Positions 21,768-44,426 of a stretch of DNA of 64,000 nt are shown one piece after another. Each line of letters starts with the position of its first letter. The first letter of the stretch is position 1. The notes under the pieces were generated by a model. The model was not told where the DNA came from, made no database searches, and saw only the letters and a program-made list of their open reading frames with translations. The position numbers and the translations under genes are program-made. The DNA comes from Nocardioides humi (GTDB lineage: Bacteria > Actinomycetota > Actinomycetes > Propionibacteriales > Nocardioidaceae). The stretch is taken from the NCBI RefSeq assembly GCF_006494775.1, contig NZ_CP041146.1, forward strand, positions 4,588,001 to 4,652,000. Reading direction: 5' to 3'.

Positions 21768-21773
21768 GACGCC

Positions 21774-23493: not shown

Positions 23494-23503
23494 TCCTCAG
23501 CCG
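23487..23503. terminator. Hairpin across two convergent stop codons
   Basis: CGGCTGA-TCC-TCAGCCG is a 7-bp stem with a 3-nt loop. It contains the deoA TGA and the stop of the convergent allG-like gene, which are only 3 bp apart. Confidence 0.45.
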
Positions 23504-24906
23504 CGCTCCCGGGTACGCCGGGCGAGCTCGGCGAGGGCGGCGGGGAAGATCGACGCGGGCGGGGTGACCAGGCCGGCGCCGACCTGGCCGACGCCGGCGA
23601 CCCTGCCGGCCATGCCGGTGTTGATCTGCGGCAGGATGCCGGTGCGGCACACCGAGGTGACGTCGATGCCCGTGGCGGCGCCGGCGAAGTCGAGGACCGG
23701 GATCGGCCAGCGGTCGTTCTCGCCGATCGTGATCTCGCGCATTCGGCGGCTCGTGGCGAGCGCGTCGGGGACGGTCCCGCCGACGAAGCGCACGATGGCC
23801 GGCGCCGCGGCCATCGCGAAGCCGCCGATGCCGGCGGTCTCGGTGATCGCGGAGTCGCCGATGTCGGGGTTGGCGTCGTCGGGTCCGTAGTCGCCGAGGA
23901 AGAGGCCGTCGGCGAGCTGGGCGGGGCCGGTGAACCACTGGTCGCCGGTGCCGGACACCTGGATGCCGAAGTCGGTGCCGTTGCGGGCCATCGCGACGAC
24001 CATCGTCGAGCCGGGTACGTCGCGCGCGGCGTCGAGCGCGAGCTTGCACGCCGGCATCGCGACGTTGAGGAAGAAGTGGTCGTTGCCGCCCATGAAGGCG
24101 AACGCCTCCGCGATCTCCTCGGACGAGCGCGACGAGCGGACCAGGGAGGGCGCGATGTCGCGCAGCAGCATCAGCGTGCCGGCCCGGTTGCGGTTGTGCG
24201 CCTCGTCGCCCATCTGCAGCATCTGGCCGAGGATCGCCGTCGCGTCGACCGGCCCGGCCGCGGTGACGGCCTCGCCGAGCAGCGGCCCGAGGACGTCGCG
24301 CATCCAGCGCAGCCGGTCCAGCACCTCGGGCCCGTAGGCGCCGTACCGCAGCACCTTGCCGAGCCCCTCGTTCAGCGAGCAGTAGGTGCGCCGGCCGGTG
24401 GCCGGGTCCTCGAGCACGAACATCCACATGGAGGGGGAGACCACCCCGGCCATCGGCCCGACGGCGCTGCGGTGGTGACACGGCTCCAGCGACACGCCCG
24501 CCCCCGAGGCGAACAGCGCCTCGGCGTCCTCCGGGTCCTCGACCAGGCCCTCGAACGCCGCCGCGCCCATCAGCGCACCGCGCAGCGGTCCGGAGGCGCG
24601 GGCCCACTCGATCGGCGGCCCGGCGTGCAGGAACTGGCCCTGAGTCAGGCCGAGCAGCTCGGAGGCCGGCGCGACGCCGACGAGCATCGCCTGCACGTCG
24701 AGCATCCGGGACACGGCGAGCGCGTTGGCGTCGCGGCGCAGCGGATCGGCGGCGACGGTCGCGAGGTCGTCGGCGGTGCCGTCCATCGGCGGCGTCCAGT
24801 CGACCCGCTCGACCGGGACGGCCTGGTCGGCGACGGCCGCGGCGAACATGTCGGCGCCGACGGCGGCGACGGCGGTCGGGGCGGCGCTGGGCAGGGTGGC
24901 GGTCAT
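23497..24906 (-). CDS. DUF1116 protein, AllG (YlbE)-like carbamoyltransferase subunit
   Basis: The 469-aa protein closely follows the DUF1116 pattern of E. coli YlbE/AllG: LLGLTQGQFLHAGPPIEW near residue 70, LEPCHHRSAVGPMAGVVSPSM near 130, SLNEGLGKVLRYGAYG and RLRWMRDVLGP. In E. coli AllF (FdrA), AllG and AllH form the oxamate carbamoyltransferase, which phosphorolyses oxalurate to oxamate and carbamoyl phosphate. The ATG overlaps the fdrA stop (ATGA). The order allH-fdrA-allG on one strand, next to a PucR regulator, supports a heteromeric complex. The substrate here is probably another N-carbamoyl compound; ureidomalonate is proposed from the barbiturase context. Confidence 0.85.
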   Translation of the reverse strand: MTATLPSAAPTAVAAVGADMFAAAVADQAVPVERVDWTPPMDGTADDLATVAADPLRRDANALAVSRMLDVQAMLVGVAPASELLGLTQGQFLHAGPPIEWARASGPLRGALMGAAAFEGLVEDPEDAEALFASGAGVSLEPCHHRSAVGPMAGVVSPSMWMFVLEDPATGRRTYCSLNEGLGKVLRYGAYGPEVLDRLRWMRDVLGPLLGEAVTAAGPVDATAILGQMLQMGDEAHNRNRAGTLMLLRDIAPSLVRSSRSSEEIAEAFAFMGGNDHFFLNVAMPACKLALDAARDVPGSTMVVAMARNGTDFGIQVSGTGDQWFTGPAQLADGLFLGDYGPDDANPDIGDSAITETAGIGGFAMAAAPAIVRFVGGTVPDALATSRRMREITIGENDRWPIPVLDFAGAATGIDVTSVCRTGILPQINTGMAGRVAGVGQVGAGLVTPPASIFPAALAELARRTRERG

Positions 24907-26377
24907 CGGGCATCTCCGCTGGTGAGGGCAACCGCCCGGCGGGTGGCTGCGGCGTTGGACAGGTGGACCTCGGCGCCGACGGCGGCCAGCGCCTCGGCCT
25001 GACGGGACAGGCCCTGGGGGTCGGTCGAGGTGCCGACGCAGGCGACGACAACGGGGACGTCGCGGGCCGCGCGGGCGGCGGCGATCGCGGGCGCGAGCTC
25101 GGCGGCCGGGTCGTCCTGGGCGCCGTGCCCGAGCACGACGTCCAGCAGGATCACCGCGGTCTCCGGGTCGGCGGCGACCGTGCCGAGGTGCTCCAGGCGC
25201 AGCGTGGGGTCGATCATCGGGTGCGCACGGCCGCGGGTGAGACCGTCGTCGCCGAAGTCGATCATCAGGTGGCCCTCGGCGACCAGGCTCGCGTCGAGCG
25301 CGAGCTCCGGCGCGAGCGGGATGTTGCTGCGGATCGGGCCGAGCGTCGACGCCGCGAGCAGCATCGCCTCGTCGCACAGCGTGCCGCCGACGAACAGCCC
25401 GCGCAGGGCGCTACCGCCCGACGCGCTCCGCACGGCCGGGTCGCCCCACGTCGGCCACTCCGGTACGGCGACGCCGAGGTCGCCCAGCAGCGCCTCGACC
25501 TGCGCGGTGAGGTCGGGCTGGCCGGCGCCGAGCAGCGCGAACCGGACGGGCGTGGCCAGGTCGGCGGCGTACTTCTCCACGGCCGCGGCGACCTCGGCGG
25601 CCGGCGGCTTGGACACGACGACGATGTGCTCGACCGAGGGGTCGGCGTCGAGGCGGTCCAGCGCGGTCGTGGTGGAGATCCCGCCGATCGCGGCGGACAG
25701 GTCGCGCCCGCCGACGCCGAGCGCGGCGGCGACGCCCACGCCCGCGGCGTCGAGGAGCGCGAGGATCTGCTGGCACCCGGTGCCGGAGGCGGCGACGATG
25801 CCGACCCGCCCGGGGACACGGTGTTGGCGAAGCCGAGGCCGACGCCGCCGACGACCGCCGTACCGCAGTCGGGGCCCATCACGAGCAGGCCGCGATCGCG
25901 CGCGATCCGCTTCATCGCGAGCTCCTGCTCGACCGGCACGTTGTCGCTGAAGACCATCACGTCGACGCCGGCGTCGAGCGCGTCCATCGCCTCGACCAGC
26001 GCCGAGGCGCCGGGCACCGAGACGAGCGCGAGGTCACCGCCCGCGCGGCGCAGCGCCGAGGCCGTGGTGCGCGGTGGCTCCGCGACCTCCCCGCCCGACG
26101 AGCCCTTGCGGGCCGCGGCGAGCGCGGCGTCCACCGCCGCCAGCGCGGCGGCCAGCGCGGACTCGTCGGCGAGACGCAGCGCCACGACCATGTCGTTGGG
26201 CGTGGCCGCGGGCAGCGTGAAGCCCATGCCCTGCAGCACCTCCACGTTCAGCTCGGTCGCCATCGCCACCTGCGCGGCGGCGACGCCGGGGGTGGCGGCG
26301 ACGTCCCGGCTGACCTGCAGCAGTGCGACGCTGTCGGCGTACGCGCCGGGCCGGATCTCGACGTGCTGATGCGTCAT
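24903..26377 (-). pseudogene. fdrA: FdrA (AllF)-like carbamoyltransferase subunit, single-base frameshift
   Basis: The first part (ATG at 26377) reads MTHQHVEIRPGAYADSV and continues to GPDCGTAVVGGVGLGFANTV, a CoA-ligase-like Rossmann region typical of FdrA. The second part, in another frame, continues with GIVAASGTGCQQ and VGGRDLSAAIGGIS to the C-terminus at 24903. Adding one C to the CCCC run (plus-strand GGGG, 25812-25815) gives NTVSPGRVGIV and a continuous 491-aa protein. It may be a sequencing error or a genuine lesion. ATGA overlaps join it to allH upstream and allG downstream. In E. coli FdrA/AllF is a core subunit of oxamate carbamoyltransferase. Confidence 0.85.
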
Positions 26378-27198
26378 CGAGTGCTCCCTTCGAGGGCTTC
26401 GTTGATGGACGGGGACTGACTGACGGGGAAGAGGGCGAGGTGGGCGCCGAGGAGCATCCCGGCGCCGGAGGTGTGGCCGACCGCGAGCAGTACGCCGACC
26501 GCGGCGGCGTCCGCGGCGGCGAGGACCGCGCGGAACGGCGCGATCGCCTCGCCGGCGGCCGCGTGCCGGAGCAACGTCGCGGAGAGGCCGGTCGTGCGGT
26601 GGAGGTGGACCTCGACCGTGCGGGCGATCGCGCCGGTGTCGCGGCCGGCGGCGCGGGCGGCCACCAGCCAGCCGCACAGGACGTCGTCGCCGACCGGGGT
26701 CAGGCCGTCGCCGCGCCCGACCAGGGCGGGCACCGCCGCAGGGTCGCCGTCGGCGAGCAGGGTGAGCGCGGACTCCGGCAGCTGGTCGCGCGCCGGGCCC
26801 AGGTCGGCGGGCACGACGGCCAGCCGGCCCGCGGCGCCGGGATCGAGCGCGGGGGCGGCGAAGGGGACCAGGCGGCCGACGCCCACGGTCAGCGGGCCGA
26901 TCCGGAGCACGCCGTCCCCGGCCGTCACCGGCGCGCCCACGGCGACCTCCGGCAGCACGGTCAGTGCCGTCGCGATCCCGCAGGGCACGTGCACGGCGCC
27001 GCGGGCGAGCACGCCGACGATCCGGTCGATCCGGCCGTCGCCGAGCTCGGCGTACACCGCCTCACGTCCGGCGTGCACGACCGTGCCGGTCGCCGGCGGG
27101 CCGTGGAGAAGGCCACGCAGCGCCGGCGAACCGGCCCCCGCAACCAACTCTTCGACCCGTTCCACCTCTCGGACGCTAACGGCTGGGTTATCGTGCAT
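26374..27198 (-). CDS. DUF2877 protein, AllH (YlbF)-like carbamoyltransferase subunit
   Basis: The 274-aa protein has the DUF2877 hallmarks: GRGDGLTPVGDDVLCGWL near residue 157 and LLAVGHTSGAGMLLGAHLAL near 240, both matching E. coli YlbF/AllH. It is the first gene of a coupled allH-fdrA-allG operon. The start is uncertain: ATG 27198 leaves almost no spacer to the divergent regulator, and a GTG about 11 codons further in, after CGAGAG, is possible. Together with FdrA and the DUF1116 protein it should form the carbamoyltransferase complex, supplying carbamoyl phosphate to the carbamate kinase encoded at 42362. Confidence 0.85.
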   Translation of the reverse strand: MHDNPAVSVREVERVEELVAGAGSPALRGLLHGPPATGTVVHAGREAVYAELGDGRIDRIVGVLARGAVHVPCGIATALTVLPEVAVGAPVTAGDGVLRIGPLTVGVGRLVPFAAPALDPGAAGRLAVVPADLGPARDQLPESALTLLADGDPAAVPALVGRGDGLTPVGDDVLCGWLVAARAAGRDTGAIARTVEVHLHRTTGLSATLLRHAAAGEAIAPFRAVLAAADAAAVGVLLAVGHTSGAGMLLGAHLALFPVSQSPSINEALEGSTR

Positions 27199-27217
27199 CG
27201 AATGGTGAGCATTGCCA
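27189..27217. promoter_or_regulatory. Divergent promoter region with TGGT-N7-GCCA site
   Basis: TATCGT (27189-27194) ends 7 nt before ATG 27202 and fits a leaderless -10 for the PucR gene. TGGT-GAGCATT-GCCA (27203-27217) is one base short of the TGGC-N7-GCCA palindromes found before the permease and the carbamate kinase gene. An autoregulatory site is plausible but unproven. Confidence 0.35.
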
Positions 27218-28515
27218 ACGTCCGATCAGAAGTCGGGCAAGAGTTGATAGCCACCGCACAGGGCGGTGTCGCGCACGATGGCGTCATGGATGTGGAGGAC
27301 CTCGCCGAGTCGCTCGCCCAGCTGGTGCTGGCGGGCGCCGACCTCGGCGAGCTCGTCGCCGCGATCGGCGACGCGCTCGACGTCCACGTCGCCGTCACCA
27401 CGACCGACGGCCGGGAGCGCGCGGCGCGCATCGACGACGCGATGCGCGAGCGGATCACCGGCGCCGGCCTGACCGACGAGACCGGCCGGCTGCGCGTCGA
27501 GTGGCTGGGCGACCGCGGCGGCCACGAGGGCCAGCCGGTGAGCGGCGCCCACGTCCACCGCGAGCCGCTGTCCGCGCCCAACCAGGCGCTCGGGCATCTC
27601 GTGGCGATCGCCGAGCGGGGCCTGACCCCGGAGGAGATCGTCGCCCTGCGGCGCGCGGCCACCTCGGTGTCGCTCTCGATCACCCGCGAGCAGGCGGTCT
27701 CCGCGGTCGAGAACAAGTACCGCGGCGACTTCCTGCGCGACGTCTTCCTGGGCCGCGCCGGCTCCGACGAGTTCGTCCGCGAGCACGTCGTCGGCTTCGG
27801 CTGGGACCTCACCGGGCCGACGATCGTGCTGGCCGCGCAGATCGACCCGCAGCCGTCGTACCAGCCGCCGGCGTCGATCGAGGACCGGCGGCACTGGCAG
27901 GAGCGGTTCGCGAACGCCTGGCGCCAGGTCGCCGCCGCGGTCGACAAGGCCATCCCGATCGCGGACTTCGGCTCCGAGGTGGTGGCGGTCCTGCCCGCCC
28001 AGGACGCCGACGCCGCCACCGCGCTGGTACGCCGCCTGGTGCACGCCGTCGCCGGCGACAAGGGCGGCGGGCGGCGCCCGTTCACCGCGGGCGTCGGCCG
28101 GGTGGCCGACGCGCCGTCCGGCCTGCCCGAGAGCTACACGCAGGCCCGCCGGGCGCTGGAGGTGGGCCGCCGGTTCCGCGGCCCGAGCACGACCACCTGG
28201 TTCGACGACCTGGGCCTGCACCGGCTGATCGCGATGGTGCCCGACACCGAGGAGCTGCGGGCGTTCGCCCACGACGTGCTCGGGGAGCTGGCCGGGAGCA
28301 CGGAGGAGGCGATCACCCTGCGGGAGACGCTGCAGGTCCTGCTCAACACCAACTTCAACGTCGCCGAGGCCGCGCGGACCCAGTTCTTCCACTACAACAC
28401 GATGCGCTACCGGGTGGGGAAGCTCGAGCGGCTGCTCGGCCCGGTCGCCTCCGACCAGAACCTGCGCCTCGACGTCGCGGTCGCGCTCAAGGTGCTCGAG
28501 GTCGTCAGCCGGTGA
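27202..28515 (+). CDS. PucR-type transcriptional regulator
   Basis: The 437-aa protein (409 if started at ATG 27286) has an N-terminal sensor-like region, a central CdaR/GGDEF-like domain (about residues 190-310) and the C-terminal PucR HTH: LRETLQVLLNTNFNVAEAARTQFFHYNTMRYRV is spread over about 375-407. PucR proteins activate purine and related nucleobase catabolism. It is divergent from the carbamoyltransferase operon and precedes the uracil permease and molybdenum hydroxylase operon, so it is the likely regulator of this island. It may respond to a pathway intermediate; the ligand is unknown. Confidence 0.87.
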   Translation: MVSIANVRSEVGQELIATAQGGVAHDGVMDVEDLAESLAQLVLAGADLGELVAAIGDALDVHVAVTTTDGRERAARIDDAMRERITGAGLTDETGRLRVEWLGDRGGHEGQPVSGAHVHREPLSAPNQALGHLVAIAERGLTPEEIVALRRAATSVSLSITREQAVSAVENKYRGDFLRDVFLGRAGSDEFVREHVVGFGWDLTGPTIVLAAQIDPQPSYQPPASIEDRRHWQERFANAWRQVAAAVDKAIPIADFGSEVVAVLPAQDADAATALVRRLVHAVAGDKGGGRRPFTAGVGRVADAPSGLPESYTQARRALEVGRRFRGPSTTTWFDDLGLHRLIAMVPDTEELRAFAHDVLGELAGSTEEAITLRETLQVLLNTNFNVAEAARTQFFHYNTMRYRVGKLERLLGPVASDQNLRLDVAVALKVLEVVSR

Positions 28516-28612
28516 CCCCGCCGCTGATCCGGCGGGTGACCCGGTCGATGACGGCCTGATGAACAGGCCCGGAATCGCGGGCAACTTCCGACAGCAGTCT
28601 CCCGGGATCCTT

Positions 28613-28656: not shown

Positions 28657-28707
28657 GGTGAGTCTCGGCAGCCCCAGACGAGCAGCCCCAGATCAGGAGG
28701 ACTCAGC

Positions 28708-30069
28708 ATGTCGATGTTCAAGTGGGAGGTAGTCGACCCGGCGCCCGGCGAACCGGTCGCGCCGCACCAACGGCTCCCGTGGGGTCGGACCGTAGGCCTG
28801 GGAGCACAGCACGTCGTCGCCATGTTCGGCGCGACGTTCGTGTTCCCGATCGTGATGGGCCTCGACCCGAACCTCGCCATCATGTTCTCGGGCATCTGCA
28901 CGATCGGCTTCCTGCTGATCTGCAACAACAAGGTGCCGAGCTACCTCGGCACCAGCGCCTCGTTCGTCGCCGGTGTGGCCGCGATCCGTGCGCAGGGCGG
29001 TGACTCGGCCGACGTGACCGGCGCGATCTTCATCGCCGGTGTCGTGCTGGCCGCGGTCGGCGTCGCGGTGCACTTCGCGGGCTCCGGCCTGATCAACAAG
29101 CTCCTGCCGCCCGCCGTCACCGGTGCGGTGGTCATGCTGATCGGCTTCAACCTGGCTCCGGTCGTGGCAGGCGTCTACTGGCCGCAGGACCAGTGGATCG
29201 CGCTGGCCACCGCGGCGTTCATGGTCTGCGCCGCCGTGCTCCTGCCCGGCTTCTGGTCGCGGATCGCGGTCTTCCTCGCCCTCGTGTTCGGGTACGTCGT
29301 GTCGTTCGTCGCCGACAAGCTGTTCGGCACCATCACCTCGGTCCTGCCGACCGGTCCCGACGCCGTCGAGCACGACCGCGTCTCCTGGGCGGGCGTCAAG
29401 GCCGCCGACTGGATCGGCTTCCCGAGCGGCGACCTCGCCGACGGCGTCTCGGTCGTGCACGGCCCGAGCTTCTCGCTGACCTTCATCCTCCTGGTGCTGC
29501 CGGGCGTCATCGCCCTCATCGCCGAGAACACCGGTCACGTCAAGGCGGTCGCCGAGATGACCGGCGAGAACCTCGACCCGTACATGGGCCGGGCCATCGG
29601 CGCCGACGGCGCCGCGACCGCGTTCGCCAGCCTCTTCGGCGGCTCGCCGACCACGACGTACGCCGAGAACATCGGCGTCATGGGTGCCACCAAGGTCTAC
29701 TCGACCGCGGCCTACTACGTGGCCGGAGCCGTGGCGATCCTGCTCGGCCTGTGCCCGAAGTTCGGGGCGATCGTCAACGCGACCCCCGGCGGCGTCCTCG
29801 GCGGCATCACCGTCGTGCTCTACGGCATGATCGGCCTCGTCGGCGCCAAGATCTGGGTCGAGAACAACGTCGACTTCGGCAACCCGGTCAACATGGTCGG
29901 CCTCGCCGGCGGCATCATCGCCGGCATCGGCGGCGTCACGCTCAAGGTCACCGACGACTTCGAGCTCGGCGGCATCGCCCTCGGCACCATCCTCGTCATC
30001 GTCTTCTTCCACCTCGTCAAGGGGCGGAACGCGGACCTGGGCTCGGGCGAGGTGACCAAGAGGCTGTGA
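28708..30069 (+). CDS. NCS2-family uracil/xanthine permease (UraA/RutG-like)
   Basis: The 453-aa membrane protein has about 12-14 hydrophobic segments and NCS2 motifs: GAQHVVAMFGATFVFP near residue 32, IALIAENTGHVKAV near 268 and GGSPTTTYAENIGVMGATKV near 310. The last motif matches the uracil-type branch (UraA, RutG) rather than the xanthine/urate branch. It should import uracil, thymine or a related base with protons. A strong AGGAGG precedes the ATG, and its stop overlaps the next GTG, so it is the first gene of a coupled operon that goes through two Mo-hydroxylase subunits to an amidase. Confidence 0.92.
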   Translation: MSMFKWEVVDPAPGEPVAPHQRLPWGRTVGLGAQHVVAMFGATFVFPIVMGLDPNLAIMFSGICTIGFLLICNNKVPSYLGTSASFVAGVAAIRAQGGDSADVTGAIFIAGVVLAAVGVAVHFAGSGLINKLLPPAVTGAVVMLIGFNLAPVVAGVYWPQDQWIALATAAFMVCAAVLLPGFWSRIAVFLALVFGYVVSFVADKLFGTITSVLPTGPDAVEHDRVSWAGVKAADWIGFPSGDLADGVSVVHGPSFSLTFILLVLPGVIALIAENTGHVKAVAEMTGENLDPYMGRAIGADGAATAFASLFGGSPTTTYAENIGVMGATKVYSTAAYYVAGAVAILLGLCPKFGAIVNATPGGVLGGITVVLYGMIGLVGAKIWVENNVDFGNPVNMVGLAGGIIAGIGGVTLKVTDDFELGGIALGTILVIVFFHLVKGRNADLGSGEVTKRL

Positions 30070-30941
30070 AGCCCGCACCCTTCGACTACGTCCGGCCGGG
30101 GACCCTGGAGGAAGCCCTCCAGGCCCTGGCCGGGCACCCGGAGGCCAAGGTCCTCGCCGGGGGCCAGAGCCTCGTCCCCCTCCTCTCGATGCGGCTGGCC
30201 GCGCCGGCGGTCCTGGTCGACATCAACGACCTGCCCGGCCTCGGGCACGTGCGGGCCGACGCCGACGGCGTCCGGATCGGGGCGCTCGCGCGGCACGCGC
30301 AGGTCCTCGCCGACCCCGGCGTCGCGCGCGTGCAGCCGCTCGTGCCGCTCGCGCTCGCCAACGTCGCCCACGCGACCATCCGCAACCGCGGCACCACCGT
30401 GGGCTCCCTGGTCCACGCCGACGCGGCGGCGGAGATGCCGATGGTGCTGCGCCTGCTGGAGGGCTCGCTCGACGCGGCCGGGCCGGGCGGTCGTCGTACG
30501 ATCCCGGCGGCGGAGCTGTACGTCGGCCCGCTCGAGTCCAGCCTCCACCACGACGAGATCGCGGTCGAGGCCTTCTTCCCGGCGCTGCCCGCCGGCAGCG
30601 GCGTCGCCTTCGAGGAGATCGCCCGCCGGCACGGCGACTACGCCATGTGCGGGGTCGCGGCCGTGGTCGCCGTCGAGGGCGACCGGGTGGTCAGCGCGAA
30701 GGCCGGCTACCTCTCGGTGTCCGACATCCCGACCGTGGTCGACCTGACCGAGGCGCTCGGCGGCTCGATCGGCGCCCCCGCCCTGGCCGCCGCGGCCGCG
30801 GCCGCGCTCGAGCAGCTCGACCCCGAGACCGACATCCATGCCACGGCCGACTACCGCGCGCACCTCGCCACGGTGCTGACCGCGCGGGTCCTGACCGCGG
30901 CCCACGACGACGCCCGCGCGCGGGCGGAGGGAACCCGATGA
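30066..30941 (+). CDS. Molybdenum hydroxylase FAD-binding (CoxM-like) subunit, set 1
   Basis: The 291-aa protein has the FAD-binding motifs of CO dehydrogenase/xanthine dehydrogenase medium subunits: AGGQSLVPLLSMRL at about residues 33-46 and RNRGTTVGSLVHADAAAEMP near 105, with a C-terminal CO_deh_flav_C domain. It transfers electrons from the 2Fe-2S subunit to an acceptor. GTGA overlaps the permease stop and ATGA the small-subunit start. In this context the enzyme is a candidate uracil/thymine or purine-base dehydrogenase. Confidence 0.88.
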   Translation: MKPAPFDYVRPGTLEEALQALAGHPEAKVLAGGQSLVPLLSMRLAAPAVLVDINDLPGLGHVRADADGVRIGALARHAQVLADPGVARVQPLVPLALANVAHATIRNRGTTVGSLVHADAAAEMPMVLRLLEGSLDAAGPGGRRTIPAAELYVGPLESSLHHDEIAVEAFFPALPAGSGVAFEEIARRHGDYAMCGVAAVVAVEGDRVVSAKAGYLSVSDIPTVVDLTEALGGSIGAPALAAAAAAALEQLDPETDIHATADYRAHLATVLTARVLTAAHDDARARAEGTR

Positions 30942-31435
30942 GCGAGCACCAGCACGAGATCCGGCTCAAGGTGAACGGCACCGACCGCGACGTCGCCGTT
31001 CCCGCCCGGCGGCTGCTGTCCGACGCGCTGCGCCACGATCTCGGCCTCACCGGCACCCACGTCGGCTGCGAGCACGGCGTCTGCGGCGCCTGCACCGTCC
31101 TCGTGGACGGCCAGCCGATGCGCAGCTGCCTGATGTTCGCGGTCTCCGCCGCCGGCCACGACATCACCACCGTCGAGGGCCTGGCCCGGCCCGACGGCGA
31201 GCTGGGCCCGGTGCAGCAGGCGTTCCGCGAGTGCCACGGCCTGCAGTGCGGCTTCTGCACGCCGGGCTTCCTCACCACCATCACCGCCGGCATCGCCGAG
31301 AACCCCGAGCCCACCGAGGACGAGGCGCGCGACATGGTCGCCGGCAACCTGTGCCGCTGCACCGGCTACCAGAACATCGTCAAGGCCGTGTGCCGTGCCG
31401 CCGAGATCGCCCGGGAGAGCGGGGAGGCGTCGTGA
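30938..31435 (+). CDS. Molybdenum hydroxylase 2Fe-2S (CoxS-like) subunit, set 1
   Basis: The 165-aa protein has a plant-ferredoxin-like N-terminal cluster (C44, C49, C52, C64) and a C-terminal cluster (C104, C107, C139, C141) in CGFCTPG and CRCTGY. These two 2Fe-2S centres carry electrons from the molybdenum site to FAD. ATGA and GTGA overlaps join it to both partner subunits, with GGGCGGAGG as ribosome binding site. Confidence 0.93.
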   Translation: MSEHQHEIRLKVNGTDRDVAVPARRLLSDALRHDLGLTGTHVGCEHGVCGACTVLVDGQPMRSCLMFAVSAAGHDITTVEGLARPDGELGPVQQAFRECHGLQCGFCTPGFLTTITAGIAENPEPTEDEARDMVAGNLCRCTGYQNIVKAVCRAAEIARESGEAS

Positions 31436-34020: not shown

Positions 34021-34459
34021 CCTGCGACCGGGCGAGGGCCTGACGATGAGGCTCAAGGGCGCCGGCGCGCCCGGCACGATCGACGCGACGGTCCTGGTCA
34101 CCTTCGCGGGCGCCGAGGGCCAGACCGTCCTGTCGTACGACGCGGACGCCGTGGTCGGCGGCATGATCGGCGGCGTCGGCCAGCGGATGCTGACCAGCGT
34201 CTCGCGCCGGATGGCCGCGGAGTTCTTCGGCAACGTCGAGAAGGTGATCGCCGAGGGGCTGCCCGCCGAGGCCGCCGCGGGCGCTCCCGTGGAGTCGGTC
34301 TCGGCCGAGGGCGCGCCGGTCTACGCGGCCGCGCCGAAGGCCGCCGGCCGCCCGTCGGTCGCGGTCGGCGGGGACTCCTTCCTCACCGGCGTCCTCGTCG
34401 GCGGCGCGCTGGTGCTCGCCGGCGTCATCGTGGGCGGGCTGCTGGGCCGCCGCCGATGA
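33821..34459 (+). CDS. CoxG-like SRPBCC protein with C-terminal membrane anchor, set 1
   Basis: The 212-aa protein has an SRPBCC/CoxG domain (MKISGQNTIGAPVEKVWEAILDP; IPGCEQLEATGENAY) over about residues 1-150, an Ala/Pro linker, and a C-terminal transmembrane helix (LVGGALVLAGVIVGGLLG). CoxG anchors CO dehydrogenase to the membrane and quinone pool in other bacteria, so this may tether the Mo hydroxylase to respiration. GTG 33821 has AGGAG upstream. The stop overlaps the amidase ATG. Confidence 0.88.
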   Translation: MKISGQNTIGAPVEKVWEAILDPRVLVATIPGCEQLEATGENAYAMTVSAGVAAIKGTYSGSCVLDDLRPGEGLTMRLKGAGAPGTIDATVLVTFAGAEGQTVLSYDADAVVGGMIGGVGQRMLTSVSRRMAAEFFGNVEKVIAEGLPAEAAAGAPVESVSAEGAPVYAAAPKAAGRPSVAVGGDSFLTGVLVGGALVLAGVIVGGLLGRRR

Positions 34460-35850: not shown

Positions 35851-35855
35851 GGCGG

Positions 35856-37341: not shown

Positions 37342-37347
37342 GCGGCA

Positions 37348-37393: not shown

Positions 37394-37429
37394 TCGTGCG
37401 AAGCGACGCGGCTCACTTGAATGTGAGCC

Positions 37430-39508
37430 ATGACTGCGAGGCGGATCAGGATCGGCATCGACACGGGCGGCACGTTCACCGACGTCGTCGCCTTCGACGA
37501 GGACAGCGGGGAGGTCGTCACCACCAAGACCCCCAGCACGCCGGGGAACCCGGCCGACGGGTTCCTGGCGGGCATCGACAAGGTGCTCGGGATCGCGGGG
37601 GCGGAGTTCGCCGACGTGGTCGCCGTCAGCCACGGCACCACGGTCGCGACCAACCAGCTCCTCGAGGGCAAGGTCGACGCGCTCGGGTTCATCACGACCG
37701 AGGGCTACGAGGCGATGCTCGAGATCGCCCGGCAGTCGGTGCCGGACGGCTACGGCAACTCCTACTTCTGGGTGAAGCCGGACCGGATCGTCCCGCGCGA
37801 CCTGGTCAAGGGCGTCGGCGGCCGGCTGGACTTCACCGGCGAGGAGATCCGCCCCTTCGACGAGGACGCCGCCCGGCGTACCGCCCGCTGGTTCAAGGAC
37901 AAGGGGATCGACACGCTGGGCGTCTGCTTCCTGCACGCCTACGCCAACCCGGCGCACGAGGAGCGGATGCGCGAGATCCTCGCCGAGGAGCACCCCGACG
38001 CGGTCGTGTCCATCTCCAGCGAGGTGCTGCGCGAGTACCGCGAGTACGAGCGCTCGATGACCACGCTGGTCGACGCCGCGGTGAAGCCGAAGCTGAGCCG
38101 CTACGTCACCAACATCAAGGACCGCCTCGCCACCCAGAGCGGCCGCACCATCCCGTTCTACGTCATGAAGTCCAACGGCGGCGTGCTCTCGGCCGACGAG
38201 GTCGTGCACCAGCCGATCACCACCGTCCTGTCCGGTCCCGCCGCCGGCGCGCTGGGCGCGGCGCTGATCGCCAAGGTCGCCGGCTTCGACAAGGTCCTCA
38301 CCTCCGACGGCGGCGGCACGTCGACCGACGTCTCCGTCGTCATCGACGGCGACCCGACGCTGACCACCGAGGGCAGCGTCGGCGTCTACCCGTCCAAGAT
38401 CCCCATGATCGACGTCGTCACCGTCGGCGCGGGCGGCGGCTCGATCGCGTGGCTCTCGCCCGAGGGCACCCTCAAGGTCGGCCCCCACTCGGCCGGCGCC
38501 GACCCGGGCCCGATCTGCTACCGCAAGGGCGGCACGGAGGTCACCATCACCGACGCCCACGTCTTCCTCGGCCGGATCCCTCCCCACCTGCTCGGCGGCG
38601 AGATCCCGCTCGACGTCGACGCGGCCAGCGCGGCGATCCAGCAGCTGGCCGGCAAGCTCGGCATCTCCGCCGAGGCCTGCGCCACCGGCATCCTGGAGAT
38701 CTCCGCGTGGAACCAGGCGAACGCGCTGCGCCAGGTCACCGTCAAGCGCGGCCTCGACGTCCGCGACTTCACCCTCACCACCTTCGGCGGCTCCGGCTCG
38801 CTGCTGCTGTGCCGGCTGATGGACATCCTCAACGTCCCGACCGTGCTCGTCCCGCCGAACCCCGGCAACGTCTCGGCCTTCGGCCTGCTCACCGTCGACG
38901 TGAAGAACGACTACGTGCAGACCCACGTCGCGCTCCAGGAGAACCTGGACCCGGCCGACCTGCAGCGGGAGTACGACGTGCTCACCGCTCGCGCCGCGGA
39001 GGCGCTGAGCAAGGAGGGCTTCGCGGAGGCCGACCACGTCTTCGTGCGGACCGCCGACGTGCGCTACTTCGGCCAGGCCTTCGAGGTGCGGGTCGGCGTA
39101 CCGGACGGCCCGGTCACCGCGGACACGCTGACCGCGGTCGCCGACCGCTTCCACGCCGAGCACCGGGTGCTCTACGGCTACGACTTCTCCGGCGACGCCT
39201 CGCAGCAGGTCGAGGTGGTCAACCTCCGCGTCTCCGGCGTCGGCCCGATCAAGCGGCCGGAGATCCTCCGCGCGGACGCGGAGCGGCCGGAGCCCCAGTC
39301 CACGGGGTCGCGCTCGGTCTGCTTCGACGCCGACGCCGGGTACGTCGAGACGCCGGTCTTCTGGCGCCCCGACCTGCCCGCCGGCCAGGTGCTCACCGGC
39401 CCGGTGATCATCGAGGAGTTCGGCTCGACCGTGCCCATCCACCCCGGCTTCACCGCCCGGGTCGACGACTACGCCAACATCATCGTGACGCGCTCGGAGG
39501 AGAGCTGA
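37430..39508 (+). CDS. hyuA: Hydantoinase/oxoprolinase subunit A (HyuA)
   Basis: The 692-aa protein has the N-terminal phosphate-binding region RIGIDTGGTFTDVVAF at about residues 6-21, the central SDGGGTSTDVSVV, GAGGGSIAWL and GPHSAGADPGPICY near 345-360, and a C-terminal Hydant_A_C domain. HyuA proteins use ATP with HyuB to open hydantoins, 5-oxoproline or lactams, or act in acetone-carboxylase-like enzymes. It is followed one base after its stop by hyuB. In this island it may open a hydantoin-type or other cyclic ureide; the substrate is unknown. Confidence 0.92.
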   Translation: MTARRIRIGIDTGGTFTDVVAFDEDSGEVVTTKTPSTPGNPADGFLAGIDKVLGIAGAEFADVVAVSHGTTVATNQLLEGKVDALGFITTEGYEAMLEIARQSVPDGYGNSYFWVKPDRIVPRDLVKGVGGRLDFTGEEIRPFDEDAARRTARWFKDKGIDTLGVCFLHAYANPAHEERMREILAEEHPDAVVSISSEVLREYREYERSMTTLVDAAVKPKLSRYVTNIKDRLATQSGRTIPFYVMKSNGGVLSADEVVHQPITTVLSGPAAGALGAALIAKVAGFDKVLTSDGGGTSTDVSVVIDGDPTLTTEGSVGVYPSKIPMIDVVTVGAGGGSIAWLSPEGTLKVGPHSAGADPGPICYRKGGTEVTITDAHVFLGRIPPHLLGGEIPLDVDAASAAIQQLAGKLGISAEACATGILEISAWNQANALRQVTVKRGLDVRDFTLTTFGGSGSLLLCRLMDILNVPTVLVPPNPGNVSAFGLLTVDVKNDYVQTHVALQENLDPADLQREYDVLTARAAEALSKEGFAEADHVFVRTADVRYFGQAFEVRVGVPDGPVTADTLTAVADRFHAEHRVLYGYDFSGDASQQVEVVNLRVSGVGPIKRPEILRADAERPEPQSTGSRSVCFDADAGYVETPVFWRPDLPAGQVLTGPVIIEEFGSTVPIHPGFTARVDDYANIIVTRSEES

Positions 39509-39509
39509 C

Positions 39510-41513
39510 ATGTGCCTGAGCTGCCAGACCGTCTCTGTCCAGAACCCCGCCGCGCCCCGCACCTTCACCCACGACGGTGACATCACCTCGCACCGCGCGC
39601 CGACCCAGTTCCCCTTCGGCACGCTGACCGAGGACGCCGGCCGCAGCGCCGACCCGGTGCTCGTCGAGATCGTCCAGGGCTCGCTCGCGGCCGTCGAGCA
39701 CGAGGTCGAGACCGCCATCGCGCGCACCTCGCGGAGCCCGATGATCCGCGACGCGCACGACTTCCGTGCGGGCATCCACGACCGGCTGCTGCGCAAGCTC
39801 ACCGGCCGCTCGTACTCCGCGCTCGTGCACCCGGTCGCCCGGGACTTCCCGATCGAGGAGATGCAGGAGGGCGACGTCTTCTTCCACAACGACGTCTACC
39901 TCTCCGAGGGCGGCATCGGCCACCTCCCCGACCTGTGCGTCACCGTCCCGGTGTTCGCCGGCCCGGAGGGGGAGCGCCGCGTCGTCGCGTTCATCCAGGC
40001 CTTCGGCCACCACGACGACATCGGCGGCGCGGTGCCGGGATCGATGCCCTCGCATGCCACCAGCGTGTTCGAGGAGGGCCTCGCCGTACCTCCGATCAAG
40101 CTGTGGGACGCCGGTGTGCCCAACCGCGCGGCGCTGACGATCATGACCCGCAACTCGCGGATGCCCGAGTCGCTCGCGGCCGACCTGGACGCCGAGTGCT
40201 CGGCCTGCCTGATGGGCGCGCGCCGCCTGGGCGAGCTCTTCGACCGCTACGGCGTCGAGACCGTCGAGGCCTGCTTCGACGCCGTCATCGACCGGTCCAC
40301 CGAGACCTACCGGCGCGAGATCCTCTCGAAGATCCCGGTCGGCACCTGGACCTGGGAGGACTACGCCGAGCACGACGGCGTCGACGACCCGCAGCTGCAC
40401 ACGCAGCGGATCACCCTCACCCGGACCGCGGCCGAGGACCCCGAGGGCGAGCGGCTGATCCTGGACTTCGCGGGCACCGGTCCGCAGGCCAAGGGCCCGA
40501 TCAACCACTGCGGCGACTACTCCGACGGCGTCTTCCTCAAGAAGTGGCTGGCGCCGATCCTGCGCAACCTCGCCGACACCCCGGAGCGGATGGCCGAGCT
40601 CGACGTCAACGAGGGCGTCGTACCGCTGATCGAGATGCGCTTCCCGGAGAAGGGCACGCTGCTGACGCCGATCTTCCCGGCGCCGACCAACGCCCGGACC
40701 TTCGTCATCCTGCGGCTGCTCGGCGTCCTGGCCGGCGTGATCGCCAAGGCGGTCGACGGCCGGATGCCCGCCGACCAGGAGACGATCCGCTACACCGGCG
40801 TCTACGGCGAGGACCTCGAGGGCCGCTCGTACCTCATGCGCGAGGTGCTCGGCGGCGGCTCCGGCGGCCGCTACTACGCCGACGGCGAGGACACCATCCA
40901 CGTCGTCCCGGACTCGCGGAACCTGCCCACGGAGTTCACCGAGTCGCGCTTCCCGTTCGTGGTCGAGTCGCTGAGCCTCGCGATGGACTCCGGCGGCGCC
41001 GGTCGGTTCCGCGGCGGCCTGGGCTACGAGAAGCACATCCGGATGCTCAAGGACGCCCACTTCATGTCCATCGCCGACCGCTCGATCCTCGCCTGCTGGG
41101 GCGTCAAGGGCGGCAAGGCCGGCAAGCCGTTCCAGGTCACCGTCGACCCGGGCGGCCCGAACGAGCGCGAGGTCGACGCCCTCGCGGACGCCGAGCCGGT
41201 CGTGGCGGGGGAGACCATCCGGATCCGCACCACCGGCGGCGGCGGCTGGGGCGACCCGCTCGCGCGCGACCCGGAGCTCGTCGTCCGGGACGTCGTGTGG
41301 CGCAAGGTCTCCCCGGAGGCCGCGCTCGCCGACTACGGCGTGGTCCTCACCGGGTCGCTCGACGACGACACCCTCGGGTACGACGCCGCGGCGACCGCGA
41401 CCGAGCGGGCCGGCCGCCCGGCACCCGTCGAGGACGACGTCTTCTTCGACCGGGGACCCGGCTACAGCACCCTGTCGGGCGGCGCCGCCGCGGCCGCGGT
41501 GGACGTGCTCTGA
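39510..41513 (+). CDS. hyuB: Hydantoinase subunit B (HyuB)
   Basis: The 667-aa protein is a full-length HyuB. DPVLVEIVQGSLAAVEHE near residue 49 starts the domain, SPMIRDAHDFRAGIHD follows, then FFHNDVYLSEGGIGHLPDL and IQAFGHHDDIGGAVPGS with His/Asp residues likely to bind metal, and GGGGWGDPL near the C-terminus. It forms a complex with HyuA. A 13-residue Cys-containing N-terminus (MCLSCQTVSVQN) precedes the usual family start. ATG 39510 is four bases from the hyuA stop. Confidence 0.92.
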   Translation: MCLSCQTVSVQNPAAPRTFTHDGDITSHRAPTQFPFGTLTEDAGRSADPVLVEIVQGSLAAVEHEVETAIARTSRSPMIRDAHDFRAGIHDRLLRKLTGRSYSALVHPVARDFPIEEMQEGDVFFHNDVYLSEGGIGHLPDLCVTVPVFAGPEGERRVVAFIQAFGHHDDIGGAVPGSMPSHATSVFEEGLAVPPIKLWDAGVPNRAALTIMTRNSRMPESLAADLDAECSACLMGARRLGELFDRYGVETVEACFDAVIDRSTETYRREILSKIPVGTWTWEDYAEHDGVDDPQLHTQRITLTRTAAEDPEGERLILDFAGTGPQAKGPINHCGDYSDGVFLKKWLAPILRNLADTPERMAELDVNEGVVPLIEMRFPEKGTLLTPIFPAPTNARTFVILRLLGVLAGVIAKAVDGRMPADQETIRYTGVYGEDLEGRSYLMREVLGGGSGGRYYADGEDTIHVVPDSRNLPTEFTESRFPFVVESLSLAMDSGGAGRFRGGLGYEKHIRMLKDAHFMSIADRSILACWGVKGGKAGKPFQVTVDPGGPNEREVDALADAEPVVAGETIRIRTTGGGGWGDPLARDPELVVRDVVWRKVSPEAALADYGVVLTGSLDDDTLGYDAAATATERAGRPAPVEDDVFFDRGPGYSTLSGGAAAAAVDVL

Positions 41514-41529
41514 GGATCAGGGGAACGCC

Positions 41530-42270
41530 GTGAAGGTCGCGATCCTCGGGGGATCCGGCAAGACCGGCCGTGCCGTCGGCGCGGCCCTGGCCCGGACGGG
41601 TGTGGCGACGCGCCCGCTGGGCCGGGCCGCGTTCGACGACCTCCCGGCCGCCCTGGCCGGCGCCGACGCCGTCCACGTGATCGCCCCCAACCTGCACCCC
41701 GACGAACCGTCGTACGTCGCCGCGGTGCTGGCCGCCGCGGCCGAGGCCGGCGTCGGCCGGGTCGGCTACCACTCGGTGGCCTCGCCCTACGCCCCGGCCA
41801 TGCCGCATCACCTCGGCAAGGCCGTCTCGGAGGACCTGGTCCGCCGCTCCGGCCTGGCCTGGACGATCCTGCAGCCCTGCGCGTACGTGCAGAACCTGTT
41901 GCCCGCCGTGCGCTCCGCCCGGCCGTCCGGCGTGGTCGAGGTGCCCTACGCCGTCGACACCCTCTTCGGGATGGTCGACCTCCAGGACGTCGCCGCGGCG
42001 ACCGCGGTGGTGCTGACCGGCGGCGAGCACGCCGGGGCGACGTACGAGCTCGGTGGGCCGGCGCTGGTGAGCGTCGCCGACGTCGCCGCCGCGGCCGGCG
42101 TCGCCGCCCGGCGGGTGCCCGCCGGCGACGACGTGCATCCCTGGCTGCGCGCGATGTTCGACTACTACGACGCGCACGGCCTGCCCACCGGCGGCGTGCC
42201 GCTGCGCGCCCTGCTGGACCGGGCGCCCGCCTCGGTCGAGCAGGTGCTGGCCCGGGATCTCGCACGGTGA
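41530..42270 (+). CDS. NmrA-like NAD(P)-binding protein
   Basis: The 246-aa protein has a Rossmann start MKVAILGGSGKTGRAVGAAL (GxSGxTG pattern) and an atypical SDR layout as in NmrA/HSCARG and azoreductase-like proteins: WTILQPCAYVQNLLP near residue 116 replaces a classical YxxxK. It could be a redox sensor or reductase. The GTG follows hyuB by 16 bp, so it is probably the last gene of the hyuAB operon. Confidence 0.8.
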   Translation: MKVAILGGSGKTGRAVGAALARTGVATRPLGRAAFDDLPAALAGADAVHVIAPNLHPDEPSYVAAVLAAAAEAGVGRVGYHSVASPYAPAMPHHLGKAVSEDLVRRSGLAWTILQPCAYVQNLLPAVRSARPSGVVEVPYAVDTLFGMVDLQDVAAATAVVLTGGEHAGATYELGGPALVSVADVAAAAGVAARRVPAGDDVHPWLRAMFDYYDAHGLPTGGVPLRALLDRAPASVEQVLARDLAR

Positions 42271-42277
42271 GCGGCCG

Positions 42278-42355
42278 CTGGCAGGTGTTGCCAGCCTTCT
42301 CCGGCCACGTTGGCTGTTCCTCACGATGAACGACGGTGATCGGGCTCACTAGGTT
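42278..42355 (+). promoter_or_regulatory. Putative operator and -10 of the carbamate kinase-barbiturase operon
   Basis: CTGGCA-GGTGT-TGCCAG (42278-42294) is a perfect 6+6 inverted repeat. TAGGTT (42350-42355) fits a -10 with ATG 42362 as a leaderless start. The same -10 hexamer and a related palindrome precede the uracil permease, which suggests co-regulation. Confidence 0.45.
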
Positions 42356-42361
42356 CGCAGC

Positions 42362-43297
42362 ATGAGGATCCTGCTGGCGCTCGGCGGCAACGCGATGACG
42401 TCTCCGGACGGCAAGGCCCGCCCGGAGGACCAGATCGCGGCCGCGACCGAGGCGATGGAGGCCGTGGCCGACCTGGTCGCCGCGGGGGTCGACGTCGTGA
42501 TCACCCACGGGAACGGGCCGCAGGTCGGCAACCTGCTGGTCAAGAACGAGCTGGCCGCGACCGTCGTACCTCCGGTCCCGCTGGACTGGTGCGGCGCCCA
42601 GACCCAGGGCACCCTCGGCGACATCCTGATGAACGCCCTCGACGGCGCGCTCGCCGCTCGCGGCGTCGCGCGGCCGTCGGCAGCCCTGGTCACCCGGACC
42701 CGCGTGGACGCGGCGGATCCCGCGTTCGCGAAGCCGAGCAAGCCGGTCGGCCGCTACCTGCCCGCCGACGAGGCGCGCACGATGATCGAGCACGGCGAGA
42801 CCTGGGAGGACCGCGGCGAGCGCGGGTGGCGGCGGATGGTCGCCTCGCCCGAGCCGCTGGAGGTCCTCGACGCGCCGGCCGCGGTCGCCCTGGTCGAGGC
42901 CGGGTTCGTCGTCATCGCCAACGGCGGTGGCGGGATCCCCACCGTACGCCGTCCCGACGGCACCCTCGCGGGCGTCGAGGCGGTCATCGACAAGGACCTG
43001 GGCGCGGCGCTGCTCGCCCAGGCGATCGAGGTCGACCTCCTCGTCATCGCCACCGACGTCGCGCACGCCGTCCTGGGCTTCGGCACGCCCGAGGCCCGCG
43101 ACATCGGCGAGGTCACGCTCGACCAGATGAGGTCCTACGCCGCCGAGGGCCACTTCGCCGGCGGCTCGATGGGCCCCAAGGTCGACGCGGTCTGCCGCTT
43201 CGTCGCGGAGTCCGGCCGGCGCGGCGTGATCACCGACCTCGGCAGCATCCTCGCGGCCGCCGACGGCCGCGCCGGAACGATCGTCACCCCCAACTGA
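42362..43297 (+). CDS. arcC: Carbamate kinase
   Basis: The 311-aa amino-acid-kinase-fold protein has the carbamate kinase motifs LALGGNAM (5-12), [11 protein letters not shown] (48-58), [17 protein letters not shown] near residue 184 and [10 protein letters not shown] near 210. It reversibly transfers phosphate from carbamoyl phosphate to ADP, giving ATP plus carbamate (CO2 and NH3). No arginine deiminase genes are nearby. The neighbours are barbiturase (22 bp downstream) and, 15 kb away, the FdrA/AllG/AllH set, which matches the AllFGH-AllK logic of oxalurate degradation. Confidence 0.93.
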
Positions 43298-43319
43298 AGA
43301 ACCCGAAAGGAACCTGACC

Positions 43320-44426
43320 ATGCCTTCTGCCATCGAGGTCCGCAAGGTCCCGATCCACTCCGTCGCCGACGCCTCCGAGCTCGCCAAGCTCATCGACGAG
43401 GGCGTCTTCAAGGCCGACCGCGTCATCGCGATCATCGGCAAGACCGAGGGCAACGGCGGGGTGAACGACTACACCCGGATCATCGCCGACCGCGCCTTCC
43501 GCGAGGTGCTCGTGGAGAAGGGCGCCCCGGCCGACCAGGTCAAGCAGGTCCCGATCGTCTGGTCGGGCGGCACCGACGGCGTGATCAGCCCCCATGCCAC
43601 GATCTTCGCGACGGTCGACGTCGCCGAGGACGACCCGAGCCGCGAGGAGCAGCGCCTCACCGTCGGCTTCGCGATGAGCGAGCCGATCCTGCCCGAGGAG
43701 ATCGGGTACGTCGCGATGATCGAGAAGGTCGCCGCGGGCGTGAAGGTGGCCATGGAGCGCGCCGGCATCACCGACCCGGCGGACGTCCACTACGTCCAGA
43801 CCAAGACGCCGCTGCTCACCATCCACACCATCCGCGACGCGCACAGCCGCGGCAAGGAGGTCTGGACCGAGCACACCCACGAGTCGATGGACCTCTCCAA
43901 CGGCGTCACCGGCCTCGGCATCGCGGTCGCCCTCGGCGAGATCGAGATGCCGACCGACGCGGACGTCATGAAGAACCGCGACCTCTACTCCTCGGTCGCC
44001 TCCTGCTCCTCCGGCGTCGAGCTCGACCAGGCCCAGATCGTCGTCGTCGGCAACGCGAAGGGCGTCGGCGGCCGCTACCGGATCGGCCACTCGGTCATGA
44101 ACGACGCGCTCGACGCCGACGGCATCTGGAACGCCATCAAGGACGCCGGCCTCGACCTGCCCGAGCGCCCGCACACCTCCGACCTCGACGGCCGCCTGGT
44201 CAACGTCTTCCTCAAGTGCGAGGCCTCCCAGAACGGCGAGGTCCGCGGCCGCCGCAACGCCATGCTCGACGACTCCGACGTGCACTGGCACCGCCAGATC
44301 AAGTCCTGCGTCGGCGGCGTCACCGCCGCGGTCACCGGTGACCCGGCCGTCTTCGTCTCCGTCTCCGCCGCCCACCAGGGCCCGGAGGGCGGCGGTCCCG
44401 TCGCCGCCATCGTCGACCTGGGCTGA
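43320..44426 (+). CDS. Barbiturase (ring-opening amidohydrolase, AtzD/barbiturase family)
   Basis: The 368-aa protein is full length for the cyanuric acid hydrolase/barbiturase family. The three repeat domains are visible: [15 protein letters not shown] (39-53), TKTP at 161-164 and [10 protein letters not shown] (228-237) with a conserved Ser, and [16 protein letters not shown] (347-362) in the third. Family members use Ser-Lys dyads to hydrolyse a cyclic imide. The actinobacterial context (uracil permease, Mo hydroxylases, carbamate kinase) favours barbiturate to ureidomalonate over cyanuric acid. AAAGGA precedes the ATG. Confidence 0.9.

Follow-up and report, generated by a model that had tools for sequence, protein, structure and literature searches.

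The subject of this work is an island of pyrimidine genes in a 64,000-nucleotide stretch of the Nocardioides humi genome (assembly GCF_006494775.1, contig NZ_CP041146.1, positions 4,588,001 to 4,652,000; hereafter the window). The island brings together genes for a barbiturase, a carbamate kinase and the three subunits of a carbamoyltransferase of the Escherichia coli AllF (FdrA), AllG and AllH type. Islands of this type probably encode a version of oxidative pyrimidine degradation that forms carbamoyl phosphate. The identities of the genes, the specificity residues of the barbiturase, the co-occurrence of the genes in other genomes, their shared order and a contrast between two versions of the pathway were all observed. 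If the reading is correct, such islands would encode a branch that conserves ATP in a pathway whose described end product is urea, and candidate genes can be named for its steps.

The route we propose would start with import of pyrimidine bases by an NCS2 permease, or with their release from nucleosides via cytidine deaminase and pyrimidine nucleoside phosphorylase. Uracil would be oxidized to barbiturate by a molybdenum (Mo) hydroxylase, here called Mo hydroxylase 1, and barbiturase would open the ring to give ureidomalonate. Phosphorolysis of ureidomalonate by FdrA/AllG/AllH (AllFGH) would then yield malonamate plus carbamoyl phosphate, from which, with ADP, carbamate kinase would produce ATP, CO2 and NH3. 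Malonamate would be hydrolyzed to malonate and NH3 by an amide hydrolase encoded after the CoxG gene. All of these reactions are predicted from sequence, the ring opening being the best founded owing to the closeness of the enzyme to a characterized barbiturase.

Identity of the ring-opening enzyme

The ring-opening enzyme of the island belongs to the AtzD family and is close to Nocardioides and Pimelobacter proteins, being 97-98% identical to the barbiturases of four Nocardioides genomes and of Pimelobacter simplex. Its top match among solved structures is named barbiturase (5hwe, 660 bits), from which we infer that it would hydrolyze barbiturate. Barbiturases (group VI of the AtzD/Bar family) are described as having Asn195, His321, Lys325, Val345 and Ser or Ala346, in AtzD numbering (PMC3758960), and all five residues are present in the window protein as N194, H324, K328, V348 and S349. 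The protein also exceeds the NCBIfam AtzD equivalog cut-off (471 vs 360), which favors another explanation, a triazine-degrading island with a cyanuric acid hydrolase as its ring opener. That explanation is almost certainly wrong: the cyanuric acid hydrolases compared here read RTRGG where the window enzyme reads NHKVS, the best of them scored only 315 bits against the 660 of the barbiturase structure, and pyrimidine transport and nucleoside genes lie close to the gene. Given the barbiturase residues we rejected the cyanuric acid hydrolase identity.

Barbiturase, AllFGH and carbamate kinase occur together

In a survey of 296 genomes sampled over the phylum, the window genome included, AtzD-family proteins were found in 18 genomes and AllG in 36; both were present in 14, where 2.2 were expected (Fisher p 2.6e-11). 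The match (14/18) first seemed imperfect, but the 14 are exactly the genomes in which the AtzD-family protein has NHKV at the four principal positions diagnostic of barbiturases. Three of the exceptions lack the barbiturase residues (two read RTRGG and one NYKGG) and the fourth sequence is cut off and too short. Expressed the other way, AllG is present in 14/14 genomes having an NHKV barbiturase vs 22/282 of the remaining genomes. Barbiturase and AllG are encoded about 5.6-43 kb apart on one contig in 11 of the 14 genomes and on separate contigs in three.

A second set comprised 80 barbiturase loci of named organisms, with flanks of up to 10 kb. AllG was found in all 49 named genomes searched that have close barbiturases (drawn from 50 of the 80 loci), and the carbamate kinase gene ended no more than 300 nucleotides upstream of barbiturase in 79/80 loci, the exception being Tessaracoccus, where it lies ~9 kb away. 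Six genomes of two other families, G009, G024, G051, G108 and G226 of one and G118 of the other, have barbiturase, carbamate kinase, FdrA and AllG genes in that order on one strand within ~10 kb, and five of them also have a permease gene. AllH lies between, confirmed or matched, in 4/6 of these compact clusters. Mo hydroxylase 1 is next in four of the six (G009, G024, G118, G226). It did not turn up in G051, and the G108 cluster runs to the end of its contig. In G009 the carbamate kinase, AllH and FdrA genes overlap by 1-4 nucleotides.

The window AllG shares 47% identity with its E. coli counterpart, and in a 59-row tree the barbiturase-linked AllG proteins form one group (35 rows, support 100/98) apart from the E. 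coli protein; these are called linked AllG below. A preliminary description of the window, made from its sequence, had put forward that AllFGH acts on the barbiturase product and that carbamate kinase consumes the carbamoyl phosphate. That reaction is still a prediction, and the gene sets which it joins do co-occur in other genomes, as the 14 genomes and the 49/49 named genomes attest.

The pathway seems to exist in two versions

As a contrast we used the Mycobacteriaceae-like family of G050, which appears to be Rhodococcus/Gordonia-like. A barbiturase match was found in 35 of its 301 genomes, and 20 of these have a barbiturase of the close type (78-85% identity), which reads NHKVS in 19 and is a fragment in one. 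Only G359 has the linked type of AllG (342 bits, 73% identical to window AllG), leaving 19/20 without it: two have a lower-scoring AllG (245-251 bits) that resembles other subfamilies and is not among the rows of the tree, and 17 have no AllG. Regions (stretches of 15-20 kb) were fetched for 19 of the 20 genomes, 18 of them without linked AllG. Among these 18, an amidase directly adjoins barbiturase in 17, carbamate kinase was seen in none, and HyuA is present in one. In G359, which has a barbiturase of the same group, we found carbamate kinase, HyuA and HyuB (HyuAB), Mo hydroxylase 1 and the AllFGH subunits, with an amidase next to AllG.

Linked AllG and carbamate kinase are therefore missing together from most barbiturase genomes of this family. 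As 17/18 viewed genomes without linked AllG have an adjoining amidase and none shows carbamate kinase, the pathway appears to come in two versions, one forming urea and the other carbamoyl phosphate. The arrangement with an adjoining amidase and neither AllFGH nor carbamate kinase would be the classical ureidomalonase arrangement, which the window does not fit: there carbamate kinase adjoins barbiturase and AllFGH is present. The joint absence of linked AllG and carbamate kinase where an amidase adjoins barbiturase, together with the lack of an above-cut-off match to AllD in 51 genomes (see below), agrees with the core idea of the preliminary description, the reaction itself being predicted.

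The amidase-signature amidases that directly adjoin barbiturase in the 17 Rhodococcus/Gordonia-like genomes (L233-L245, L249-L252) are thus pointed to as candidates for the ureidomalonase gene. G399 (L248), the sole HyuA case among the 18 and the one without an adjoining amidase, encodes barbiturase and HyuAB, has no AllG in the genome, no carbamate kinase in view and no urease match, and perhaps represents a third version.

The amide hydrolase encoded after CoxG

The position after CoxG (or after the Mo subunit) was visible in 21/80 named loci and holds an amidase-signature amidase in 18 and a CN_hydrolase in three. Embleya and G085 have a CN_hydrolase there, and G086 and G075 have a second amidase-signature lineage. 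As unrelated amide hydrolases replace one another at this position, the step would be a simple one, and conversion of malonamate to malonate fits. The barbiturase-adjoining amidases of the other version form a group of their own (17 rows, 100/100, on a long stem), of which the Nocardioides amidases of the CoxG position are the nearest neighbors (96/96). The preliminary description had linked the window amidase to malonamidase E2. Both belong to the same large family but are not close: malonamidase E2 scored at most 89 bits vs 208 bits for GatA and 177 for a biuret hydrolase, and it was discarded as the closest solved amidase.

Mo hydroxylases

The Mo subunit of Mo hydroxylase 1 passes the NCBIfam model for aerobic carbon monoxide dehydrogenase (NF040766, 1523 bits). 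Form I carbon monoxide dehydrogenases have a Cys-containing active-site loop, whereas the loop of Mo hydroxylase 1 is PYRGAGR and lacks it. Mo hydroxylase 1 is present in distant barbiturase clusters and, as it is found in both versions of the pathway, is predicted to be the uracil dehydrogenase. The preliminary description had placed two Mo hydroxylases in the island as parts of the pathway. The first is there (~30.07-34.0 kb), whereas the second, at ~44.6-48.4 kb, lies beyond the span of the island as then drawn. Only the first is widely shared; the iron-sulfur (FeS) and flavin (FAD) subunits of Mo hydroxylase 2 were found at >=80% identity, that is, at least that level, in 4/80 named loci. 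It is probably outside the conserved route, and we dropped it as a candidate pathway oxidase.

Alternative explanations

The classical urea route could hold in the window as well if the amidase encoded after CoxG were itself a ureidomalonase releasing urea and malonate, with AllFGH and carbamate kinase serving another purpose. Malonyl is the acyl group in the ureidomalonase and malonamate amidase reactions alike, Nocardioides-type amidases of this position group with the barbiturase-adjoining amidases of Rhodococcus/Gordonia-like genomes, and the window genome has a urease. We nevertheless consider this distinctly improbable, as the CoxG-position amidases fall outside the barbiturase-adjoining group, the position is also occupied by another amidase-signature lineage or a CN_hydrolase, 24/40 genomes of the carbamoyl-phosphate type lack a urease match, and carbamate kinase was seen near barbiturase only where linked AllG is present. 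Another reading makes AllFGH the oxalurate enzyme of purine (allantoin) breakdown, placed in a pyrimidine island by chance. The E. coli complex, whose AllG is the 47% identical one, acts on oxalurate and oxamate (PMC11326118), and a PucR-type regulator is present in the island. However, the AllD model TIGR03175 gave no match over its cut-off in 51 genomes (controls: 1/14 over cut-off, and matches in 4/14, E. coli included); sub-cut-off matches were found in 9/51, with three places in the window genome, the best at 208 bits vs the cut-off of 496. AllA, AllC, AllD and AllE were not found in 42 loci (L129-L170), in which there was one AllB-like match (G118), and AllG presence tracks barbiturase. 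The co-occurrence of AllG with barbiturase and the lack of AllD over the cut-off therefore weaken the oxalurate reading, which we regard as very unlikely, and oxalurate was set aside as the substrate on the AllD result.

HyuAB presents a different problem, as the family includes ATP-dependent members. The route could be as proposed but with HyuAB as an obligatory ATP-consuming step, perhaps by opening a cyclic ureide (5-methylbarbiturate, for example) or by acting on an amide intermediate. In that case the carbamoyl phosphate would do no more than repay that ATP. HyuAB is found with the carbamoyl-phosphate version in 63/80 named loci, as far as the flanks extend, and with the other version in only 1/18 genomes, and the best PDB match of HyuA is an N-methylhydantoinase. 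In three genomes that gave no AtzD-family match, Mo hydroxylase, HyuA, HyuB, FdrA and AllG genes stand in a row (L135-L137), which suggests a ring-opening role for HyuAB. Against an obligatory step, several compact clusters (stretches of ~20 kb) and 17/80 named loci showed no HyuAB in the sequence viewed, and the barbiturase genome G399 has HyuAB without AllG. We consider this explanation unlikely, though less so than the two above.

Several observations weigh against the carbamoyl-phosphate-forming route. HyuAB travels with that version yet has no job in the proposed route, and if it spent ATP in the main line the net gain may be nil; a net ATP gain is thus only a possibility. The E. coli AllFGH complex binds oxamate poorly, with a Michaelis constant of 36.9 mM (PMC11326118). 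At the fifth barbiturase position the 14 survey genomes have Ser (4), Ala (4) or Gly (6), and the six with Gly depart from the published Ser/Ala. G279 and G097 have barbiturase and AllG, but the sequence fetched around them showed no carbamate kinase, and none was found in 41 kb around the Nonomuraea barbiturase, where AllG is 41 kb away. No amide hydrolase was seen after CoxG in G062, G279 or G097, and the amidase of G359 adjoins AllG rather than following CoxG. When descent is considered, the AllG/carbamate kinase contrast amounts to three independent pairs in the tree, none of them opposite, a number too small to be significant (sign test p 0.25 or more). One contrast that speaks for the route has limits of its own: a urease alpha match was found in 16/40 barbiturase genomes with AllG vs 18/19 without linked AllG, but the p value of 5e-5 ignores descent and some of the matches counted (G302, G323, G269) are weak or partial. 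The urease pattern is suggestive only; if the carbamoyl-phosphate-forming route is correct, it would explain why many barbiturase genomes show no urease match. Also against the route, the fdrA reading frame is broken in the window.

Frame breaks in the window copy

The N-terminal part of fdrA (26377 to ~25.81 kb) and the C-terminal part (~25.81 kb to 24903) are in different frames in the window, whereas the two halves share one frame in all 45 other loci that have both. The C-terminal part matches NF004760 at 198 bits, under the cut-off of 433. As the frame is broken in the sequence of this strain, activity is claimed for the cluster type and not for the window copy. Compared with one close relative (L173), the Mo subunit of Mo hydroxylase 1 likewise leaves its frame in the last codons, at ~33.82 kb. 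The two breaks could be either small assembly errors or real changes. At 33780-34020 the Mo subunit reading frame extends beyond its usual end and overlaps CoxG; its homologous part stops near 33.82 kb.

AllFGH beside cyanuric acid and triuret hydrolases

AllG is also encoded on plasmids, and besides that of Embleya we read nine plasmid neighborhoods: four have a cyanuric acid hydrolase, one has a TrtA-like hydrolase, one has a truncated gene beside atz genes and three are unrelated or broken. In Aminobacter, Klebsiella, Citrobacter and Shewanella plasmids (L192, L193, L196, L197) AllG, FdrA, AllH (DUF2877) and carbamate kinase are encoded beside a cyanuric acid hydrolase, identified by best PDB match (Klebsiella and Citrobacter proteins) and by the RTRGG residues. 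The Klebsiella cluster includes atzF; the other three showed none in the sequence viewed. These four operons probably serve a phosphorolytic route for cyanuric acid.

In an E. coli plasmid and in G065 AllG adjoins a hydrolase having TrtA as its best PDB match, and in G038 an Isochorismatase-family neighbor has the same motif as the TrtA-like hydrolases. Such hydrolases lie beside FdrA, AllG and carbamate kinase genes in L194 (6720-12278), L131 and L132, with AllH seen in L194 and L132. In terms of genomes, AllG, FdrA and carbamate kinase were seen in both G038 and G065, and AllH was confirmed only in G065. By comparison with PMC7948467, all three hydrolases (E. coli plasmid, G065, G038) have the residues of the TrtA type at three positions: Glu at C-2, Tyr at C+25 and Ile at C+43. 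Two N-terminal positions are also TrtA-like, as placed by offset in G065 and by eye only in the other two, whereas two of the three have Ser at the Ala134 position. The rows linked to cyanuric acid hydrolase and to TrtA interleave in the AllG tree.

TrtA and cyanuric acid hydrolase are both reported to produce carboxybiuret (PMC7948467), and barbiturate and cyanuric acid differ at one ring atom (PMC3758960), which makes ureidomalonate isosteric with carboxybiuret. Removal of the carbamoyl group from carboxybiuret leaves allophanate, and by analogy AllFGH may carry out this removal. The best reading of these neighborhoods is that AllFGH phosphorolyzes compounds of the form H2N-CO-NH-CO-X-COO-, where X is nothing (oxalurate), CH2 (ureidomalonate) or NH (carboxybiuret). 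We lean toward the view that AllFGH is a general acylurea phosphorylase, lineages of which take oxalurate, ureidomalonate or carboxybiuret, the last giving allophanate plus carbamoyl phosphate. If so, carbamate kinase would be supplied from uracil, cyanuric acid and triuret alike. The AllFGH operons of comammox organisms and of the plasmids for cyanuric acid and triuret would then be reassigned, their neighborhoods being unified under one chemistry. In comammox genomes, allFGHK is described next to trtA, biuH and atzF, without trtB or upstream purine genes, and the authors read it as oxalurate use (PMC12625717). The carboxybiuret reading fits this gene set; were it true, the comammox allFGHK lying next to trtA without trtB would encode a carboxybiuret enzyme and not an oxalurate enzyme.

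Further loci were noted. Plasmid pTC1 of P. aurescens carries, between atzB and atzC, a truncated allG with an AA_kinase-family gene next to it (L202:6983-9779); the pair is perhaps the remnant of an older triazine route. In E. coli K-12, yahE-yahF-yahG-yahI-yahJ (L201:5926-12508) form a second set of DUF2877, FdrA, DUF1116 and carbamate kinase genes, accompanied by an amidohydrolase gene. The plasmid AllG genes of Vibrio (47% identical, amid insertion sequences), Rhodococcus and Methylocystis (~37%) had no fdrA or carbamate kinase in flanks of 7-8 kb.

Relation to known systems

The E. coli AllF-AllG-AllH oxamic transcarbamylase with AllK (PMC11326118) has the same three subunits plus carbamate kinase and carries out phosphorolysis of an N-carbamoyl amide. 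The system described here differs in its barbiturase context without allantoin genes, in its separate AllG group, in having no AllD over the cut-off in 51 genomes and in a proposed substrate one CH2 longer. The oxidative pyrimidine pathway of Rhodococcus erythropolis (Soong et al. 2001, 2002, as cited in PMC3758960) shares barbiturate and barbiturase with the window, but there ureidomalonase is described as giving malonate and urea (PMC3758960), whereas the window type has AllFGH and carbamate kinase. The ureidoglycine carbamoyltransferase of Rubrobacter resembles the proposal in that a ureide plus phosphate gives carbamoyl phosphate, with an adjoining carbamate kinase; it differs in being an aspartate transcarbamylase-like protein of a purine route (PMC4016543). 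The comammox allFGHK genes resemble the window in lying near ureide hydrolases without upstream purine genes, and the main text of that paper has no word starting with "barbit" (PMC12625717). No link of barbiturase with AllFGH was found among the papers listed in searches of the open literature.

Gene content of the window island

The window genome is assembled as a single contig of 6.22 Mb. On the minus strand allG, fdrA and allH follow one another with 4-nucleotide overlaps. The plus strand carries, in order, PucR, the NCS2 permease, Mo hydroxylase 1 (FAD, FeS, Mo), CoxG, the amidase, an AraC regulator, HyuA, HyuB, the NmrA-like protein, carbamate kinase, barbiturase and then Mo hydroxylase 2 (Table 1). 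Domain and profile matches bore out the preliminary assignments of the NCS2 permease, barbiturase, carbamate kinase and amidase-signature enzyme, and also of the three carbamoyltransferase subunits together, the FdrA Ligase_CoA domain lying between the AllG and AllH matches. Overlooked at that stage were HyuAB (37430-41513), the CoxG, PucR, AraC and NmrA-like genes and the fdrA frame break. The best NCBIfam match of the permease is RutG (335 bits, under its cut-off of 759), and carbamate kinase exceeds the NF009007 cut-off (291 vs 266 bits) but not that of TIGR00746 (319 vs 358).

Table 1 Features of the window (positions are those of the window; CK, carbamate kinase)
Feature	Position	Strand	Match or remark
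Bmp nucleoside-binding protein, cytidine deaminase, pyrimidine nucleoside phosphorylase; candidate uracil supply	20481..23493	-, +, +	
allG (DUF1116), proposed ureidomalonate carbamoyltransferase subunit	23497..24906	-	PF06545 321 bits
fdrA/allF	24903..26377	-	Ligase_CoA domain; frame broken ~25.81 kb in window copy
allH (DUF2877)	26374..27198	-	PF11392 72 bits, cut-off 25; 4-nt overlap with fdrA
PucR-type regulator	27313..28515 (start approximate)	+	GGDEF_2 + HTH_30
NCS2 nucleobase permease, pyrimidine-like	28708..30069	+	PF00860
Mo hydroxylase 1, FAD subunit	30066..30941 (start approximate)	+	FAD_binding_5, CO_deh_flav_C
Mo hydroxylase 1, 2Fe-2S subunit	30938..31435 (start approximate)	+	Fer2, Fer2_2
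Mo hydroxylase 1, Mo subunit, proposed uracil dehydrogenase	31432..34020 (start approximate)	+	MoCoBD_1/2
CoxG-like protein	33821..34459	+	PF06240
Amidase-signature enzyme, proposed malonamate amidase	34456..35850	+	PF01425 368 bits
hyuA, hydantoinase/oxoprolinase A	37430..39508	+	best PDB 7hk5 N-methylhydantoinase, 490 bits
hyuB, hydantoinase/oxoprolinase B	39510..41513	+	PF02538 450 bits
NmrA/NAD(P)H-binding-like protein	41530..42270	+	domain match
CK	42362..43297	+	PF00696
Barbiturase	43320..44426	+	PF09663 478 bits; PDB 5hwe 660 bits
Mo hydroxylase 2 (FeS, Mo, FAD)	44555..48434 (starts approximate)	+	

To the left of allG lie genes for a Bmp/ABC nucleoside importer, cytidine deaminase and pyrimidine nucleoside phosphorylase. 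The Bmp protein and the two enzymes likely supply uracil, and the set adjoins allG in 5/20 fetched named regions (L172-L176). The PucR-type regulator adjoins allH in close relatives also. Outside the island the window encodes a methylmalonyl-CoA mutase subunit and an M20 peptidase-family protein, at 5867-7606 and 13261-14442.

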